From: an uncultured beta proteobacterium
Lineage (GTDB): Bacteria > Pseudomonadota > Gammaproteobacteria > Burkholderiales > Burkholderiaceae_E
Assembly (NCBI GenBank): GCA_903934295.1
Contig: CAIZNI010000054.1
Span: forward strand, 1-64,000
Direction of reading: 5' to 3'
DNA: 64,000 nucleotides
Shown here: in pieces, positions 45,151 through 53,031 of the stretch
Layout: every line of letters starts with the position of its first letter
Position numbering within the stretch: position 1 is the first letter of the stretch
Program-made: the position numbers and the translations under genes
Notes under the pieces: generated by a model
Databases searched by the model: none
Told to the model about the DNA's origin: nothing
Seen by the model: the letters and a program-made list of their open reading frames with translations, nothing else

Positions 45151-46383
45151 TCAGCCGGCCGGGTGCGTGGCCGCGGTCTGCAGCAGAATCGACTCGAACT
45201 CGCCGATGCGGCGGTCCCAGCCGATGCCCAGTGCCGACTGCCGCGCAGCGCGGCCGAGCCGTTCGATGCGCGCCGGGTCGGTCGCCAGGGCGCACGCCAG
45301 TTCCAGCAGGCGGGCGGGCTCGTCCGGGCTGGCCAGCAGGCCGGTCTGCTCGTGGGTGAGGTGACAGCCGGCCGCCGCGCAGTCATAGGCCACCACCGCC
45401 AGACCGCTGGCCATCGCCTCGAGGGTGACATTGCCGAAGGTTTCGGTGAGGCTCGGAAACAGGAACACATCAGCCGACGCATAGTGGGCGGCGAGGTCCT
45501 CGCCGCTGCGCATGCCGGCGAAGATCGCCTCGGGAAAGCGTGCCGCCAGCGCGGTTCGGGCCGGGCCGTCGCCCACCAGCACGAGCCGTGCATCGGGCTG
45601 GCGCCGGCGCATCGCGGCGAAGGCGTCGCCCAGCATCGCCAGGTTTTTCTCGGCGGCCAGGCGCCCGACGTGGAGCACCACCGGTGCGCCGGGTGCCACA
45701 CCCCATTGCCGGCGCAGTGCCTCGCTGCGTCGCGCCGGATCGAACAGCCGGGTGTCGACGCCGCGACCCACCACCGCCAGGCGCAGGAAGCCGGCGCGCG
45801 CCAGACGGTCCTGGATCTCGCGCGTCGGCACCATCGTCACCGCGGTGCGGTTGTGGAACCGGCGCAGGTAGGCGCCGATCGGGCTCCTGAGCCAGCCCAG
45901 CCGGTAGTGCGCGCTGTAGGCATCGAAGTTGGTCCGGAAGTCGCTCGACACCGGGATGCGCAGCCGCAGCGCCGCCTGCAGGGCCGACCAGCCCAGTGGG
46001 CCTTCGGTGGCGATGTGAACCAGATCGGGCCGGTGACGCATCCAGTGAGTGGTCAGCGCGCGGCGCGCCGGCAGCCCCATGCGCAGGTTCGGATAGTTCG
46101 GGATTGCCAGCCCGCGAAACAGCAGCTCGGGCGCGTCGCCGGCGCTGCCCGCCGCGCTGGCGGTCGGCGCGTCGCCCGGCTGGCGCGGACGCAGCAGCCG
46201 CACCGTGTGACCGCGCTCGACCAGCCCGCCGACGAAGCGGGCGAGCGTGCTGGCCACGCCATTGATTTCCGGCGGATAGGTTTCGGTGACGACCGCCAGC
46301 CGAAGCGAGGCTCGGGCGGGCGCGAGTTCTTGCCAGGTGAAGGGCGCCGCCGTGTCCGTGCGGTCGGATGGTCGAAGGGTCAT
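45151..46383 (-). CDS. GT4-family glycosyltransferase (MgtA/SqdX/Agt-like)
   Basis: 410 aa; ATG 46383 follows AAGGTGG, and a GTG at 46389 is a near alternative. The N-terminal half carries VVTETYPPEINGVASTLARF, the opening of lipid-directed GT4 enzymes such as MgtA, SqdX and Agt. The donor half has VVLHVGRLAAEKNL, VLVGDGPAR, DVFLFPSLTETFGNVTLEAMASG (Ex7E motif) and LTHEQTGLLA. These enzymes add hexose or glucuronate to diacylglycerol or phosphoinositol acceptors. Divergent from the Mpo1-like gene, with a Pho-box-like repeat between them. Confidence 0.88.
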   Translation of the reverse strand: MTLRPSDRTDTAAPFTWQELAPARASLRLAVVTETYPPEINGVASTLARFVGGLVERGHTVRLLRPRQPGDAPTASAAGSAGDAPELLFRGLAIPNYPNLRMGLPARRALTTHWMRHRPDLVHIATEGPLGWSALQAALRLRIPVSSDFRTNFDAYSAHYRLGWLRSPIGAYLRRFHNRTAVTMVPTREIQDRLARAGFLRLAVVGRGVDTRLFDPARRSEALRRQWGVAPGAPVVLHVGRLAAEKNLAMLGDAFAAMRRRQPDARLVLVGDGPARTALAARFPEAIFAGMRSGEDLAAHYASADVFLFPSLTETFGNVTLEAMASGLAVVAYDCAAAGCHLTHEQTGLLASPDEPARLLELACALATDPARIERLGRAARQSALGIGWDRRIGEFESILLQTAATHPAG

Positions 46384-46428
46384 GACCACCCACCTTGCCG
46401 GATCGACGCGACGGTTTGATGAACCCGA

Positions 46429-46446
46429 TCGTCAACGAATCGTCAT
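46429..46446 (+). promoter_or_regulatory. Pho-box-like direct repeat
   Basis: TCGTCAA (46429-46435), four bases CGAA, TCGTCAT (46440-46446). The 7-4-7 layout equals the PhoB site CTGTCAT-N4-CTGTCAT, with the GTCA core kept in both halves; matches are 4/7 and 5/7. TGTAGT at 46463-46468 would serve as a -10 sixteen bases on, longer than the ten of classical Pho promoters. It points towards the Mpo1-like gene and lies 46 bases from the glycosyltransferase start. Confidence 0.4.
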
Positions 46447-46519
46447 CGGCCGGTAAGGCCGCTGTAGTGCAGCCTGCCTACGCTCGAGTGTTTACCCCCT
46501 TGTACGGCCAGGAGGCCCC

Positions 46520-47128
46520 ATGAACGACTTTGTGCAGGCGCTGCGCGTTCAGCGCTGGGACGACCACCGCTACTACCACCACAGCCGCATCAACCAGTCG
46601 CTGCACTTCGTGAGCGCGCTCAGTTTTCTGGTGGCCTATGCGGTGCTGTGGTTCGATCCGGCGATCGCCGCGCTGATCGCGTGGCTGCTCGCGATGACCA
46701 CCCGCCAGGCCGGGCATTTCTTCTTCGAGCCCCGCGGCTACGACACCGTCAACCAGGCCACCCACGAGCACAAGGAAGACATCAAGGTCGGCTACAACCT
46801 GCGCCGCAAGGTGGTGCTGATGGCCGTCTGGGCCCTGGCACCGGTGGCCCTGCTGCTGGATCCGACGCTGATGGGCCTGATCGAGCCGGCGGGCGATGCG
46901 ATCGGCACCGCGCGCCAGATCGGCATGGCCTGGCTGGTCATCGGCGTGGCGGGGCTGGTGCTGCGCACGGTGCACCTGTGCTTCATCCGCGATGTGCAGA
47001 CCGGCCTGGTCTGGATGACCAAGATCCTGACCGACCCGTTCAACGACGCGTGGCTGTATCGCCGCGCGCCGCTGCACCTGCTGCGCGGGGAACTGATCGA
47101 CCCGATGCACGCCGTGCATCGGCGCTGA
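46520..47128 (+). CDS. Small membrane protein, Mpo1/DUF962-like
   Basis: 202 aa, preceded by CAGGAGG. About four helices: ~30-60, 92-115 and 135-165 are clear. The N-terminus YYHHSRINQSLHFVSALSF and the GHFFFEPRGYD loop after helix 2 resemble DUF962 proteins, whose yeast member Mpo1 is an iron-dependent dioxygenase acting on 2-hydroxy fatty acids. Conserved histidines (HHSRIN, LHF, GHFFF, THEH) could hold a metal. The likeness is partial, so the assignment is a hypothesis. Its stop is separated by one base from that of the convergent aminomutase-like gene. Confidence 0.55.
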   Translation: MNDFVQALRVQRWDDHRYYHHSRINQSLHFVSALSFLVAYAVLWFDPAIAALIAWLLAMTTRQAGHFFFEPRGYDTVNQATHEHKEDIKVGYNLRRKVVLMAVWALAPVALLLDPTLMGLIEPAGDAIGTARQIGMAWLVIGVAGLVLRTVHLCFIRDVQTGLVWMTKILTDPFNDAWLYRRAPLHLLRGELIDPMHAVHRR

Positions 47129-47129
47129 C

Positions 47130-48779
47130 TCAGAACCGTTGGGCGACCATTTCCCGCAGGATCTGCCGGCCGATCGACTTGTTCGTGAGGGCGGGGTCGC
47201 GCCACCACCAGCCGTCGGCCTGCATGGCGCGGGCGGCGGCGACGAAGCGATCGGCGACCGTCTCGAAGTCGGCTTCGCTGAAATTCAGCGAGAAGATCAT
47301 CCGCCCGCTGCCCACCCAGCTCAGCGCGAGCCCCTGGGCACGCAGGTAGAACTGCAGCATCCAGTTGTAGCGCGAGGGCTGCGTGTAGCAGACCGTCCAG
47401 ATCGTCGACAGGTTGGCCACGCGCACCGGCAGTTCGCCGGCCGCCAGACGCGCGTTCAGGTCGGCGGCGCGCCGGTTCCAGGTGTCCTCCAGGCCGTCGT
47501 ACAGACCGGCGATCGCCGGGGTGTCCAGGCGCTCCAGGAAGACCTGCATCGCGCCCATCACATACGGGTGCGCGTTGAAGGTGCCGCGCGCAAAGCAGAT
47601 GTCGGCCGGCCGGTCGGCCCGAAAGCGGCGCATCAGGTCGGCGCGCCCGCAGACCACGCCCACCGGCAGTCCGCCGCCCAGCGTCTTGCCATAAGTGACG
47701 AGGTCGGCGCGCACACCGAAGAATTCCTGGGCGCCGCCGCGTGCCAGGCGAAAGCCCACGAACACCTCGTCGAAGATCAGCACGATGCCGCGTTCGCTGC
47801 ACACCTCGCGCAGTCGCACGAGCCAGTCGGTGTAGGCGGCCTTGTCGAAGCCCGCCTGGCGCGAACTGTCGACCAGCGACGAGTCGCCCGGGGCGTTGCG
47901 GTTGGGGTGCAGCGCCTGCAGCGGATTGACCAGCACGCAGGCGATGTCGCGCCGCCGGCGCAGCACCCGCAGCGTGCGCTCGCTCATCTCGCTCAGGGTG
48001 TAGGTCTCGTGCGGGGGCAGCGGGTTGCCCACGCCGGGCTGAACGTCCTCCCACCAGCCGTGATACGCGCCGCACAGGCGCACCAGGTGCGAGCGCCCGG
48101 TGTGGTATCGCGCCACCCGCACCGCCTGCATCACCGCTTCGGTGCCGGACATGTGGAAGGACACCTCGTCCAGGTCGGAGATCTCGCGCAGGCGCTGCAC
48201 ATTGAAGGCGAGCGCCGGGTGGTAGGCGCCCAGCACCGGACCCAGGTCCTGCACCCGCTCGCTGCCCTCGCGGATGCACTGCTTGTAGAAGTCGTGGCCG
48301 AACACGTTCACGCCATACGAACCGGTCAGGTCGATCAGCCGGTTGCCGTCCAGGTCGACCAGCGTCACGCCCTCGGAGGACTGCGCGAAGCTGCCGGCAC
48401 CCAGCCGGCGCTTGACCGTTTCGCTGAACGGAAAGGGCACGCGGTAGCGGCTGGTGAACTGCAGATCCGACAGGCCGACTTCGGTCTGCGCGGTCAGTGC
48501 GCGCGACTTCGGGAATCGCTCCTCGTACAGCGTGGCCAGCCGTTCGAAGCCGCGCCGGCGCAGGCGGGCGGTCGCGTCATCGGCGCCGTCGCAGCAGAAG
48601 AACGCGTCGTCGCCGAAGGCATAGAACGGCAGCTGCGCGGCGACGCGGCGCGACAGCCGCGAGTGTCCCGACAGCGAGCGGTGCTTGGCGCGCGAGAGTT
48701 CGATGCGCTGTTTCAGCGCGGGCAGGCTGGCGGCGATCGCGCCGGCTGCCAGTGCATACCAACCGATGGTGGCGCTCAT
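47130..48779 (-). CDS. Membrane-anchored class III PLP aminotransferase/aminomutase (HemL-like)
   Basis: 549 aa; about 120 residues longer than HemL. One N-terminal helix (residues ~5-22) and a basic/Cys-containing segment precede the catalytic part, which begins near 110. The PLP core is complete: SGTEAVMQAVRVAR, YHGWW, FDEVFVGFR with Asp337 and YGKTLGGGLPVG with Schiff-base Lys365. It resembles glutamate-1-semialdehyde aminomutase, but the membrane anchor and lipid-enzyme neighbours argue against tetrapyrrole synthesis. I infer an amino-lipid or amino-sugar role. It is divergent from psd, 53 bases apart. Confidence 0.8.
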   Translation of the reverse strand: MSATIGWYALAAGAIAASLPALKQRIELSRAKHRSLSGHSRLSRRVAAQLPFYAFGDDAFFCCDGADDATARLRRRGFERLATLYEERFPKSRALTAQTEVGLSDLQFTSRYRVPFPFSETVKRRLGAGSFAQSSEGVTLVDLDGNRLIDLTGSYGVNVFGHDFYKQCIREGSERVQDLGPVLGAYHPALAFNVQRLREISDLDEVSFHMSGTEAVMQAVRVARYHTGRSHLVRLCGAYHGWWEDVQPGVGNPLPPHETYTLSEMSERTLRVLRRRRDIACVLVNPLQALHPNRNAPGDSSLVDSSRQAGFDKAAYTDWLVRLREVCSERGIVLIFDEVFVGFRLARGGAQEFFGVRADLVTYGKTLGGGLPVGVVCGRADLMRRFRADRPADICFARGTFNAHPYVMGAMQVFLERLDTPAIAGLYDGLEDTWNRRAADLNARLAAGELPVRVANLSTIWTVCYTQPSRYNWMLQFYLRAQGLALSWVGSGRMIFSLNFSEADFETVADRFVAAARAMQADGWWWRDPALTNKSIGRQILREMVAQRF

Positions 48780-48832
48780 GGTTCATCCCGTGGTCGAAAC
48801 CATCCTGTCTAAATGACTTCCTTTACACATCC

Positions 48833-49744
48833 ATGAACACACGCCAGATCATTGCCCGCCTCGTTCGCCAGGAAGACCTCAATTTCCTGCTCACCAACCG
48901 GATTCCCCGTCTGCAGGTCACCCGGTTCATGGGCTGGTTCAGCCGGATCGAGCATCCGCTGTTGTGCCGGCTGTCGATGGCGATCTGGCGCCTGTTCACC
49001 GAGCTCGATCTCAGTGACGCGAAGAAGACCTCGTTTCGCAGCCTGCATGAGTGCTTCACCCGCGAGCTCAAGCCCGGCGCGCGCCCGCTGGATCCCGATC
49101 CGGCGGTGCTGGTGAGCCCGTGCGACGCGATCGTGGGCGCCTGCGGGCGGGTCGAGGCCGGGCAGGTGCTGCAGGCCAAGGGGTTTCCGTACACGCTGGA
49201 AGAGCTGTTCGGCACCGCCGATGGCGCGATCCCTTATCGCGACGGCAGCTATGTGACGCTGCGCCTGACGTCGGCGATGTACCACCGCTTTCATGCGCTG
49301 GCCGACGGCCGTGTCGAGCAGGTCGACTACCTGTCGGGCGACACCTGGAATGTGAATCCGATCGCGCTGCAACGCATCGAGCGTCTGTTCTGCCGCAATG
49401 AGCGCGCGGTGATCAGCCTGCGCCTGCGCGCCGGCGGGCAGACGGTCGCCCTGGTGGCGGTGGCGGCGGTGCTGGTCGCCAGCATCCGGCTGCATTGTCT
49501 GGATGTGCTGCTCAGCCTGCGCTACCGGGGGCCGCACCGGTTGCGCTGCGCAGCCGACTGCGCGCGCGGCCAGGAACTCGGCTGGTTCGAGCACGGCTCG
49601 ACCATCATCGTGTTCGCGCCGCCCGGCTTCGCGCTGTGCGACGGCGTGATCACCGGAACACGGATCCGCATGGGGCAGCGGCTGATGCACCCGCCGTCAT
49701 CAGAGCGTCACCCGCCCGCGGTCCAATCGGCATCACCCTCCTGA
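48833..49744 (+). CDS. psd: Phosphatidylserine decarboxylase (proenzyme type)
   Basis: 303 aa from ATG 48833. Self-cleavage motif GST at 255-257 (FEHGSTIIVFAPPG); Ser256 would become the pyruvoyl group. Catalytic Asp98 (SPCDAIVG) and the YHRFH histidines (151, 154) match those of E. coli Psd. The middle keeps LQAKGFPYTLEELFG and LFCRNERAV. It converts phosphatidylserine to phosphatidylethanolamine at the inner membrane. The setting suggests an accessory copy or a relative acting on another phospho-amino-lipid. The PlcP-type gene follows 28 bases on. Confidence 0.88.
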   Translation: MNTRQIIARLVRQEDLNFLLTNRIPRLQVTRFMGWFSRIEHPLLCRLSMAIWRLFTELDLSDAKKTSFRSLHECFTRELKPGARPLDPDPAVLVSPCDAIVGACGRVEAGQVLQAKGFPYTLEELFGTADGAIPYRDGSYVTLRLTSAMYHRFHALADGRVEQVDYLSGDTWNVNPIALQRIERLFCRNERAVISLRLRAGGQTVALVAVAAVLVASIRLHCLDVLLSLRYRGPHRLRCAADCARGQELGWFEHGSTIIVFAPPGFALCDGVITGTRIRMGQRLMHPPSSERHPPAVQSASPS

Positions 49745-49772
49745 CGCCGCGCGCACGCAAGGCGAGCCGCCC

Positions 49773-50642
49773 ATGCAGCAGCACCAGCACCAGCACCATC
49801 GAACGCTGTGGATCTCCGATGTGCACCTGGGCACGACCGGTTGCAAGGCCGCCTACCTGCTCGACTTCCTGCGTCACAACGACGCCGACACGCTCTACCT
49901 GGTGGGCGACATCATCGACGGCTGGCAGCTGCGCCGTGGCTGGTACTGGCATCGCTCGCACAACGACGTGGTGCAAAAGGTGCTGCGCAAGGCGCGCAAG
50001 GGCACGCGGGTGATCTTCGTGCCCGGCAACCACGACGAGTTCGCGCGCCAGTTCGCCGGCCTTTGCTTCGGCGACATCGAGGTGGTCGATGAACTCGTCC
50101 ACACCACCGCCGACGGGCGCCGGCTGTGGGTGATCCACGGCGACCAGTTCGACGGCGTGGTGCAGAACGCGAAGTGGCTCGCCTATGTGGGCGACGCGCT
50201 CTACACCGTCGCGCTGTCGCTGAACCACTGGTTCAACCGCGCGCGCTCGCGCCTGGGGTTGCGCTACTGGTCGCTGTCGCAGTACCTGAAGCAGCGGGTC
50301 AAGAACGCGGTCTCGTTCATCAGCGACTTCGAGCATGCGCTGGCCCGCGAGGCGCGCCGGCGCGGCCTGGACGGCGTGGTCTGCGGCCACATCCACAAGG
50401 CCGAGATCCGGATGATCGACGGCACGCTGTACTGCAACGACGGCGACTGGGTCGAGAGCCTGACGGCGCTGGCCGAGGCCCATGACGGCACCCTGAGCCT
50501 GATCGTCTGGGACCATCTGCTGGACGGCAGCGCGCAGCCGCTGGTGCTGCCGGCGGCGTTCGACGAGCCGGTGGTGGTGTCCGAGACCACGCCCGCGCAG
50601 GAGACGGTGGTGGCGCGCCGCGCGCGAGAGCGCGTGGTCTGA
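49773..50642 (+). CDS. PlcP-type metallophosphoesterase (LpxH-related)
   Basis: 289 aa. Calcineurin-like metal motifs in order: WISDVHLGTTGCKA, LVGDIIDGWQLRRGWYW, PGNHDEFARQF, WVIHGDQFDGVVQNAKW and GHIHKAEIRMIDG. The long form, with the HNDVVQKVLRKARKG helix and SLSQYLKQRVKNAVSF, matches the PlcP subgroup (often annotated UDP-2,3-diacylglucosamine diphosphatase) rather than compact LpxH. PlcP degrades phospholipids to diacylglycerol during phosphate starvation, feeding a GT4 glycolipid synthase; such an enzyme is encoded 3 kb away. Confidence 0.82.
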   Translation: MQQHQHQHHRTLWISDVHLGTTGCKAAYLLDFLRHNDADTLYLVGDIIDGWQLRRGWYWHRSHNDVVQKVLRKARKGTRVIFVPGNHDEFARQFAGLCFGDIEVVDELVHTTADGRRLWVIHGDQFDGVVQNAKWLAYVGDALYTVALSLNHWFNRARSRLGLRYWSLSQYLKQRVKNAVSFISDFEHALAREARRRGLDGVVCGHIHKAEIRMIDGTLYCNDGDWVESLTALAEAHDGTLSLIVWDHLLDGSAQPLVLPAAFDEPVVVSETTPAQETVVARRARERVV

Positions 50643-50722: not shown

Positions 50723-51832
50723 TCAGCAGCCCCGTTCCAGCGCCGACACCGGCCCGGGCGACTGGCCGAATCGCGCGCCGATGGCCGCCGCGGCCTGGTC
50801 GAGCTGAGCGAGGGTTCCCGAGTCGACCGGCACCTGCTGGGCCCGCTCGGCGCGGGTGCGCCGTTCGATGTCGCCCGGCATCAGGATGCCGCCCAGGGCC
50901 TCGCCGTCGGCCGACAGGCGGGCCGACTGGACCCAGTCGACGAAGTGGCGTGCCTCGGCCTCGAAACCCTGGCCGCCGGCCATGCGCGCCGGGTCGAACA
51001 CGATCGCCAGCATGTTGTTCCAGACGCCGTAGCGCGCCGGCAGGTTGGCCGGATGGGTGGTTTCCCCGCCGGTGAGCGCCGCGCCCAGCAGCTCGCACAC
51101 CATCGACAGCGCGAAGCCCTTGTGACGGGCGAAGGGCACCAGCGCGCCGTGCGGGCCCTCGGGCGGCTCGAACAGCACCGCCGGGTCATCGGTGGGCTGG
51201 CCCTCGGCGTCGATGAGGCTGCCCGGGGGCACCGGCACTTTTTTGTTGTAGGCCACGCGCACCTTGCCGGCGGCGATCGCGCTGGTGGCGAAGTCGAGCA
51301 CGATCGGCCCGCCGTCGTTGCGCGGCATGCCGACGGTGAACGGGTTGGTGTTGAAACGCCCCTCGCCACCGCCGTGGGGCGCGACCATCGGGTTGCGGCT
51401 GACCGCATTGGTGAAGTGGATCGACACCAGGCCGGCGGCCACCGCCTGCTCGGCCCAGTGCCCCACGCGGCCCAGGTGGTGCGAATGACGCAGGCCCATC
51501 ACGCACACGCCGTGCTGGCGGGCGCGCGCGATCGCCAGTTCCATGGCCTGGAAGGCCACCGACTGGCCCATGCCGCGCCGGCCGTCGACCGACAGCATCG
51601 GCCCGGTGTCGGTGGTGACCGCCACCGTCTGGTTGAGCTGCAGTTCGTGGTTGAGCAGCGAGTCGACATAGCGCGGCGCCATGCCTACGCCGTGCGAGTC
51701 GTGGCCGGCGAGGTTGGCGCCGACCAGATGGTCGGCGGTCAGGGTGGCCTCGCGGTCGCTGGAGCCGGCGGCGCGGAACAGGTCGATGACCCAGCGGTGC
51801 AGGGCGGCGGTGGGGATCAGGTGACTGGCCAT
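50723..51832 (-). CDS. Malate/L-lactate dehydrogenase family oxidoreductase, copy A
   Basis: 369 aa, Ldh2/MDH2/YlbC family, a fold unlike classical MDH. Markers: LVGANLAGHDSHGVGM near residue 38-53, CVMGLRHSHHLGRVGHWAEQA with the catalytic His, FNTNPFTVGMPRNDGGPIVLDFATS and GGILMPGD. Such enzymes reduce 2-oxo acids with NAD(P)H (2,3-diketogulonate, ureidoglycolate, malate, lactate). It is the downstream member of a tandem pair that are near-identical over long stretches. It lacks any obvious partner enzyme. Confidence 0.88.
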   Translation of the reverse strand: MASHLIPTAALHRWVIDLFRAAGSSDREATLTADHLVGANLAGHDSHGVGMAPRYVDSLLNHELQLNQTVAVTTDTGPMLSVDGRRGMGQSVAFQAMELAIARARQHGVCVMGLRHSHHLGRVGHWAEQAVAAGLVSIHFTNAVSRNPMVAPHGGGEGRFNTNPFTVGMPRNDGGPIVLDFATSAIAAGKVRVAYNKKVPVPPGSLIDAEGQPTDDPAVLFEPPEGPHGALVPFARHKGFALSMVCELLGAALTGGETTHPANLPARYGVWNNMLAIVFDPARMAGGQGFEAEARHFVDWVQSARLSADGEALGGILMPGDIERRTRAERAQQVPVDSGTLAQLDQAAAAIGARFGQSPGPVSALERGC

Positions 51833-51903: not shown

Positions 51904-51929
51904 CGCGCAGTTCACACGCGCAGTTCAGA
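51904..51929. repeat. 13-bp tandem duplication at the copy B stop
   Basis: CGCGCAGTTCACA (51904-51916) is followed by CGCGCAGTTCAGA (51917-51929), which contains the stop of dehydrogenase copy B on the minus strand (TCA at 51925-51927). Further degenerate copies of the GTTC element extend to about 51882. Confidence 0.65.
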
Positions 51930-53031
51930 CAATCTCCAGCGCCGACAACGGCCCGGGCGAATGGCCAAAGCGCGTGGCGATCGCGGCCGCGGCCTTGTCC
52001 ATCTGGGCGAGGGTTCCCGTGTCGACCGGCACCTGATGGGCGCGTTCGGCGCGGGTGTGCCGTTCGGCGTCACCCGGCATCAGGATCCCGCCCAGCGCCT
52101 CGCCGTCGGCCGACAGTCGGGCGGAGCGGACCCAGTCGACGAAGTGACGCGCCTCGGCCTCGAAGCCCTGGCCGCCGGCCATTCGCGCCGGATCGAACAC
52201 GATGGTGAGCATGTTGTTCCAGATGCCGAAGCGCTCCGGGCGCGTGTCCGGGCGCATGGTGTCGCCGCCGGTGAGCGCGGCGCCCAGCAGTTCGCACACC
52301 ATCGCCAGCGCGAAGCCCTTGTGCCGCGCGATCGGCACCAGCGCGCCGTGCGGGCCTTCGGGCGGCTCGAACATCACCGCCGGGTCATCGGTGGGCTGGC
52401 CATTGGCGTCGATGAGGCTGCCCGCCGGTACCGGCACCCGCTTGTTGTAGGCCACGCGCACCTTGCCCTGGGCGATGGCGCTGGTGGCGAAGTCGAGCAC
52501 GATCGGTCCGCCATCGTGCCGCGGCATGCCGACAGTGAAGGGGTTGGTGTTGAAACGCGCTTCGCCGCCGCCGAACGGGGCGACCAGGATGGTGCGGGTG
52601 ATGGCGTTGGTGAAGTGGATCGACACCAGGCCGGCGGCCACCGCCTGTTCGGCCCAGTGACCGACCCGGCCCAGGTGGTGCGAATGACGCAGGCCCATCA
52701 CGCACACGCCGTGCTGGCGGGCGCGCGCGATGGCCAGTTCCATGGCCTGGAAGGCCACCGACTGGCCCATGCCGCGCATGCCGTCGACCGACAGCATCGG
52801 GCCGGTGTCGGTGGTGACCGCCACCGTCTGGTTGAGCTGCAGCTCGTGGTTGAGCAGCGAGTCGACATAGCGCGGGACCATCCCCACGCCGTGCGAGTCG
52901 TGGCCGGCGAGGTTGGCGCCCACCAGGTGGTCGGCGGTGAGGGCGGCCTCGCGATCGCTGGAGCCGGCGGCGCGAAACAGGTCGGCCACCCAGCGGTGCA
53001 GGGGTTCGGTGGGAATCAGGTGATCGGCCAT
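51925..53031 (-). CDS. Malate/L-lactate dehydrogenase family oxidoreductase, copy B
   Basis: 368 aa. Same family and same motif order as copy A, with most positions identical; the segment from LNHELQLNQTVAVTTDTGPM to HSHHLGRVGHWAEQ is almost unchanged even at DNA level. Differences cluster at SRNPMVAPHGGGEG versus TRTILVAPFGGGEA and at GGETTHPANLPARY versus GGDTMRPDTRPERF, that is, around the presumed substrate pocket and a surface loop. It lies upstream of copy A with a 92-base spacer and a period of about 1.2 kb. Confidence 0.88.
   Translation of the reverse strand: MADHLIPTEPLHRWVADLFRAAGSSDREAALTADHLVGANLAGHDSHGVGMVPRYVDSLLNHELQLNQTVAVTTDTGPMLSVDGMRGMGQSVAFQAMELAIARARQHGVCVMGLRHSHHLGRVGHWAEQAVAAGLVSIHFTNAITRTILVAPFGGGEARFNTNPFTVGMPRHDGGPIVLDFATSAIAQGKVRVAYNKRVPVPAGSLIDANGQPTDDPAVMFEPPEGPHGALVPIARHKGFALAMVCELLGAALTGGDTMRPDTRPERFGIWNNMLTIVFDPARMAGGQGFEAEARHFVDWVRSARLSADGEALGGILMPGDAERHTRAERAHQVPVDTGTLAQMDKAAAAIATRFGHSPGPLSALEIV

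Follow-up and report, generated by a model that had tools for sequence, protein, structure and literature searches.

A putative phosphate-stress lipid-remodelling module with an aminotransferase, an Mpo1-like protein and a second phosphatidylserine decarboxylase in Burkholderiales

The window analysed here is a stretch of 64,000 nucleotides from an uncultured beta proteobacterium of the order Burkholderiales (GenBank assembly GCA_903934295.1, contig CAIZNI010000054.1, positions 1 to 64,000 of the forward strand). Five neighbouring genes at 45151-50642 encode a GT4 glycosyltransferase, an Mpo1-like membrane protein, a HemL-like aminotransferase, a phosphatidylserine decarboxylase (Psd) and a PlcP-like phosphoesterase, and together they probably form a PhoB-linked module for membrane-lipid remodelling under phosphate stress. 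The locus belongs to the PlcP-type remodelling loci, with an added three-gene unit, and the inseparable pair of the module is the aminotransferase and the Mpo1-like protein. In the published loci, as described in the portions of PMC4796936 and PMC9239053 used here, PlcP is paired with either Agt or BtaA-BtaB, and Pho boxes are present. The present locus resembles them in its PlcP-like phosphoesterase, its GT4 enzyme and the Pho boxes of its relatives, whereas its aminotransferase, Mpo1-like protein and second Psd are additions, none of which is mentioned in those portions. The word "aminotransferase" has no occurrence in PMC9239053, as far as its text was covered (PMC4796936 was not searched for the word), and no description of the combined module was found in open-licence PMC full texts.

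Organisation and conservation of the locus

The initial annotation had described five adjacent lipid-directed genes, and all of the open reading frames were found where it had placed them or close by. The features of the locus, with protein lengths in amino acids (aa), are as follows.

45151-46389, minus strand: GT4 glycosyltransferase, 412 aa, with GT4/GT1 domains above the Pfam cut-off
46429-46457, plus strand: Pho-box-like tandem, repeating every 11 bases, in the gap from which the GT4 and Mpo1-like genes diverge, located with an own-genome matrix
46520-47128, plus strand: Mpo1-like (DUF962-type) membrane protein, 202 aa, weak match to PF06127
47130-48779, minus strand: class III (AMT/HemL-like) aminotransferase dependent on pyridoxal phosphate (PLP), 549 aa, with a putative N-terminal membrane helix and an Aminotran_3 match
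48780-48832, no strand: divergent intergenic region between the HemL-like and Psd genes, 53 bases, with Pho-box enrichment in relatives
48833-49744, plus strand: second Psd (cluster type), 303 aa, TIGR00163 match
49773-50642, plus strand: PlcP-like metallophosphoesterase, 289 aa, with Metallophos domains above cut-off

The five genes are not a single operon. The GT4 and Mpo1-like genes diverge from a gap of 130 bases, the Mpo1-like and HemL-like genes converge, and the HemL-like and Psd genes diverge across the 53-base region. The start of the Psd gene was corrected to the ATG at 48833, and the PlcP-like gene follows on the same strand, 28 bases after the end of psd.

Conservation was examined in the best 80 of at least 589 HemL-like relatives (near loci), which are not a random draw and many of which lie on short contigs; 40 of these loci have full flanks, and neighbours were counted at E<=1e-20. 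Near the HemL-like gene, a cluster-type Psd was present in 79/80 loci, an Mpo1-like gene in 78/80, a GT4 gene in 64/80 and a PlcP-like gene in 19/80, while the loci with full flanks gave 40/40, 39/40, 36/40 and 12/40, respectively. The neighbourhood on which the initial annotation had made its reading depend is thus conserved in relatives. Its proposal of a tight association of all five genes holds for the HemL-like/Mpo1-like unit, for the Psd (nearly always) and for GT4 (usually), but not for PlcP, which is frequent and non-core. The core gene order of most beta loci is that of the window; in L018, L021 and L026, the Mpo1-like, HemL-like and Psd genes are all co-directional. Record titles place the module in Polynucleobacter, Variovorax, Methyloversatilis, Dechloromonas, Curvibacter and others. 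Two records titled Bordetella parapertussis (L042 and L014) are metagenome bins and probably misnamed.

Co-occurrence was analysed in 200 genomes of Burkholderiales, the order of the window, with thresholds of E<=1e-100 for the HemL-like and E<=1e-15 for the Mpo1-like protein. The HemL-like protein was present in 22 of these genomes, and the Mpo1-like protein was found in exactly the same 22 and in one more, G336. All 22 module genomes carry two Psd, compared with 11 of the 178 others (Fisher p 2e-21), and 20/22 carry a PlcP-like protein (E<=1e-40), compared with 72/178 (p 5e-6); all of these counts share ancestry, and the Fisher p-values take the genomes as unrelated. In a sample of 398 genomes of the phylum, the HemL-like protein was detected in 25 (E<=1e-60). 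In G336 (L236 6136-7860), neither gene of the convergent Mpo1-like/HemL-like pair has its full length, only about 122 residues of the HemL-like one being left, and the module appears to be decaying.

Properties of the encoded proteins

The HemL-like protein matches Aminotran_3 in Pfam with 110 bits. Its score against the NCBIfam hemL model was 169.8 bits, far under the cut-off of 527.3, and a 40-row tree placed it on a branch of its own (100/100), apart from the putative AMT domains and the HemL-type proteins; these two results rule out a spare HemL (glutamate-1-semialdehyde (GSA) aminomutase). The comparison set of the tree comprised six putative AMT domains, taken from large open frames, and thirteen HemL-type proteins, and the AMT-domain branch itself was weakly supported (92/56). 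The family profile scored 242 bits against the AMT domain of mycosubtilin synthase and 160 against the best GSA aminomutase. The same AMT domain (6kfm/6kfr/6kfu) was the top match by both sequence profile and fold: the predicted model (predicted local distance difference test score (pLDDT) 84, predicted template-modelling score (pTM) 0.85, with low-confidence stretches at 240-253 and 295-301) retrieved it first in Foldseek, at E 4e-28. The mycosubtilin AMT domain is a ketoacyl aminotransferase. Both proteins share the stretches GGAQE-F---ADLVTYGK and GTFN-HP, whereas the HemL-like gene stands alone rather than within a polyketide synthase or nonribosomal peptide synthetase, has an N-terminal helix and falls outside the putative AMT branch. 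The "aminomutase" part of the earlier label finds no backing, given the placement of the protein apart from the HemL clade and its closest resemblance to the AMT aminotransferase domain. In 37 aligned sequences, S211-G212-T213, H240, D337, K365 and T400 are invariant, and these are putative PLP-binding positions by analogy with the family. The model opens with a helix of 30 residues (2-31), which is read as a putative membrane anchor.

The Mpo1-like protein resembles yeast Mpo1 through a weak profile match to PF06127 (22.5 bits, gathering cut-off 24), and a second score in the family, 23.3 bits, was likewise under the cut-off; the match is limited to residues 16-72 of 202. Seven positions (D15, H16, H20, N25, H29, H66 and E70) are invariant in 32 aligned sequences. 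The predicted model is helical (pLDDT 89.5), and the family profile found no match in the PDB at E<=5. We regard the protein as a membrane-located putative iron oxygenase.

A natural fusion joins these two proteins. In G091 (locus L162), a single 738-aa frame combines a HemL-like part, 47% identical to its counterpart in the window, and an Mpo1-like part, 27% identical to its own. The Mpo1-like part gave no Pfam match when searched alone; by eye, it retains the DDH, H--N---H and RQ-GH stretches. The neighbours of the fusion include a DUF3419 protein (369 bits), which we take to be BtaA, together with PlcP-like and GT4 proteins and an alkaline phosphatase above cut-off. A methyltransferase with generic domains only occupies the BtaB position.

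The cluster Psd matches TIGR00163 with 144 bits (cut-off 111.75). It is not the sole housekeeping copy, a possibility that the initial annotation had raised, since the genome of the window carries a second Psd elsewhere, in a separate clade. Cluster Psd sequences form their own clade (98/93), in a tree for which the program warned of long branches elsewhere, and the G336 copy falls inside it. Among the 11 two-Psd genomes lacking the HemL-like protein, the Psd fetched from G336 was of the cluster type, and neither copy of G330 was. In module genomes beyond the order sample, at least two Psd were found in 26/29. The top solved relative is E. coli PSD (PDB 6l06/7cnw), whose catalytic and phosphate-contact residues were taken from the relevant part of PMC7952604. 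The equivalents of D90, H144, H147 and S254 are kept in 28/28 cluster sequences, and the GS cleavage motif is present, whereas Y137 is replaced by R and S166 by N in 28/28, D142 by M in 27/28, and LGST by HGST. The housekeeping Psd of the window genome retains Y and S at the phosphate-pocket positions 137 and 166. These residue patterns suggest that the cluster Psd is probably a competent decarboxylase with an altered head-group pocket. According to the same part of PMC7952604, about 15% of PSD family members have R at position 137, so phosphatidylserine (PS) may still be the substrate of this enzyme. Two genomes, G085 and G091, seem to manage without a cluster Psd, and G091 has instead a BtaA/BtaB-like pair near its fusion (L162 7494-8729).

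Against two LpxH models, the window metallophosphoesterase scored 37-42 bits, under cut-offs of 190 and 134. The initial annotation had allowed that it might be the only LpxH of the genome; this was ruled out by a true LpxH on C41 of the same genome, which scored 207.8 bits, above cut-off, compared with 32.7 for the window gene. Its putative assignment to the PlcP kind draws on its distinctness from LpxH and on relatives beside BtaA/BtaB-like genes. In 12 of the 22 module genomes, no more than 10 kb separates a PlcP-like gene from the HemL-like gene, compared with 0.11 expected from chance placement; three of these 12 PlcP-like matches contain an internal stop. The domains of the GT4 protein exceed the Pfam cut-off, and the protein is below cut-off in each of the 25 NCBIfam models listed out of 31; it is a candidate Agt, the type that acts on diacylglycerol.

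Lipid-gene neighbours and phosphate control

Other lipid genes accompany the module in part of the loci. In L042, Psd-BtaA-BtaB-PlcP share a strand, and in L237 PlcP-BtaA-BtaB lies about 4.5 kb from the module; with L162, these loci have BtaA and a BtaB-like neighbour, as do published PlcP-BtaA-BtaB loci. A PmtA-like methyltransferase gene was found nearby in 10/27 far loci (L149-L156, L175, L176), several of which are alphaproteobacterial by title, and in 7/80 near loci; the L176 copy and the Mpo1-like gene overlap. Among NCBIfam models, the methyltransferase matches the phospholipid N-methyltransferase PmtA best, at 133.7 bits, under the cut-off of 390. Near the module in 31/80 of the best loci lies a gene for an LplT-like lysophospholipid flippase, and the one tested, from L035, scored 502 bits (LplT cut-off 297).

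Some neighbouring proteins have unusual architectures. L165 (10844-13552) and L160 (2344-5025) encode proteins of about 900 aa in which a GT4 domain forms the C-terminal end and a conserved part of about 420 aa, 65% identical between the two, the N-terminal end; relatives of these proteins occur in 8 far loci. Pfam gave no convincing match for the N-terminal part, and for that of L165 the PDB gave no credible one. In both loci, the HemL-like gene, the gene for the large GT4 protein, Psd and the Mpo1-like gene lie on one strand. A PHP phosphoesterase domain, suspected by eye in the large proteins, was unsupported by Pfam (L165, L160) or the PDB (L165). A weak, divergent relative of DUF3419 (the BtaA family) follows the cluster Psd in L238 (9324-10424, genome G341).

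To assess phosphate control, regions of relatives were scanned with the Pho-box motif CTGTCAT-N4-CTGTCAT (14 scored positions), with other spacers and permuted motifs as controls; the scanned regions are mutually related, and these controls leave the kinship in place. In 64 regions between GT4 and Mpo1-like genes, the best match averaged 10.0/14, reaching at least 11 in 19 regions and at least 12 in 7. With other spacers (0-3, 5-9), the same regions gave at least 11 in 0-4 and at least 12 in 0-1, and none of 60 permuted motifs reached 19 regions (mean 1.2, maximum 7). The HemL/Psd regions of relatives gave at least 11/14 in 6/92, compared with 0-2 at other spacers.

The genome of the window contains 20 Pho-box sites with at most 2 mismatches, compared with 0 for the reversed control, and one of its two best sites stands directly before a gene whose product looks PstS-like by eye. 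A matrix built from these own sites of the genome served as a second approach to the window, after a consensus search. With this matrix, the site at 46429 was the 4th best of the window, with a region-corrected p of 0.007 that does not allow for the examination of four regions, and the repeat at 46440, which overlaps it, was the 20th best. A site at 49694, in the 3' end of psd and upstream of the PlcP-like gene, gave p 0.014, and a site at 48822-48839 (rank 15) overlaps the start of psd. Because the boxes are enriched in relatives and the window sites are weak, the case for phosphate control is good for the family and suggestive for the window. The phosphate-stress setting put forward in the initial annotation is accordingly retained for the family, where a few loci also show linkage to btaA/btaB/plcP or alkaline phosphatase, and is less firm for the window itself.

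Proposed function and alternative explanations

In the remodelling module that we favour, PlcP and GT4 would convert phospholipid to diacylglycerol and then to glycolipid. The Mpo1-like enzyme would oxidise a lipid, and the aminotransferase would then aminate the new carbonyl; action of both on one lipid is suggested by the natural fusion. Psd would decarboxylate an amino-acid-headed lipid (PS or a product of the module) to a primary-amine lipid, which PmtA-type enzymes, where present, could methylate. Oxidation and amination of one lipid followed by formation of a primary-amine lipid is the most economical mechanism, in which the oxygenase and amination chemistry, its substrate, the order of the steps and the product are what we infer. 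We put forward only tentatively that these genes form a new pathway under PhoB control. Its membrane Mpo1-like oxygenase and membrane-anchored aminotransferase, which also occur as a natural fusion, would oxidise and aminate a membrane lipid, and Psd would trim it; the resulting amino lipid, so far undescribed, would replace or modify phosphatidylethanolamine (PE) under phosphate stress. If such a lipid is made, it would add to the known enzymatic responses to phosphate shortage, which include glycolipids and betaine/ornithine lipids. A conserved aminotransferase family, annotated by fold only in the single RefSeq record examined, would then also gain a function.

Several observations weigh against this interpretation. 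The module is patchy, being confined to the 22 of 200 order genomes, and none of the five further genomes sampled from the family of the window has the HemL-like protein. G336 retains Psd, Mpo1-like and GT4 genes without an intact aminotransferase. A single Psd is present in G085, G091 and G584, and the copies of the first two are not of the cluster type; the Psd is nearly, not strictly, obligate because of these three genomes. PlcP is nearby in just 19 of the 80 best loci and BtaA in 1/80, and a BtaA match was obtained in 5/51 module genomes, two of them weak. The Mpo1-like protein falls short of the PF06127 cut-off, and its model found no match among solved structures in the PDB at E<=0.001. 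In the window, the Pho-box tandem is weak, with 9/14 consensus bases, the consensus search (at most 3 mismatches) returned 0 sites where 2.8 were expected by chance, and the gap between the HemL-like and Psd genes has no Pho box inside it (p 0.09).

The same enzymes could act on acyl chains, and this alternative is unlikely without being negligible. The Mpo1-like protein would oxidise 2-hydroxy or other acyl chains of phospholipid, the aminotransferase would aminate the oxo-acyl product in the manner of AMT in mycosubtilin, and Psd would just supply PE as a carrier. Yeast Mpo1 has 2-hydroxy fatty acids as its substrate, and the AMT domain as nearest solved relative and the LplT-like gene in part of the loci point the same way; however, the aminotransferase lies outside the AMT clade, and linkage to head-group methylases of the PmtA or BtaB type in some loci favours the head group. 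Degradation of PE or phosphoethanolamine by the aminotransferase for nitrogen and phosphorus salvage, with Psd feeding it, seems improbable to us. The comparison enzyme here is ETNPPL, and the class III fold, the phosphate-stress setting in relatives and the dedicated Psd that is nearly always near would all agree with such recycling. Yet a lipid substrate accords better with the putative membrane anchor and with a fusion partner that is itself a membrane protein, and the fusion locus in G091 has no Psd nearby.

A sphingoid-type pathway that builds or degrades a long-chain base was considered by analogy with yeast Mpo1, which acts in long-chain base breakdown, and is very improbable. In L176 (16302-25596, a Sphingomonas parapaucimobilis plasmid), the annotation shows a class I/II PLP enzyme, an acyl carrier protein and an N-acetyltransferase at about 3-12 kb from the module, a set that we presume to be sphingolipid-like; a relative of the class I/II PLP protein was present in just one other locus compared (L010, E<=1e-5). 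Product names of the RefSeq type, taken alone, would suggest a chance neighbourhood of a spare hemL, a housekeeping psd and unrelated genes. This explanation is hardly credible, being contradicted by the separate clades, the matching co-occurrence and the conserved linkage; the other LpxH and Psd copies and the separate clades led us to reject the housekeeping readings (only LpxH, only Psd, spare HemL) as a whole.

Outside the module, an Rfam scan of the window gave 0 matches. Two closely similar adjacent genes of the malate/lactate-dehydrogenase type (named by eye) lie 3' of the locus at 50723-51832 and 51925-53031, an apparent tandem duplication.

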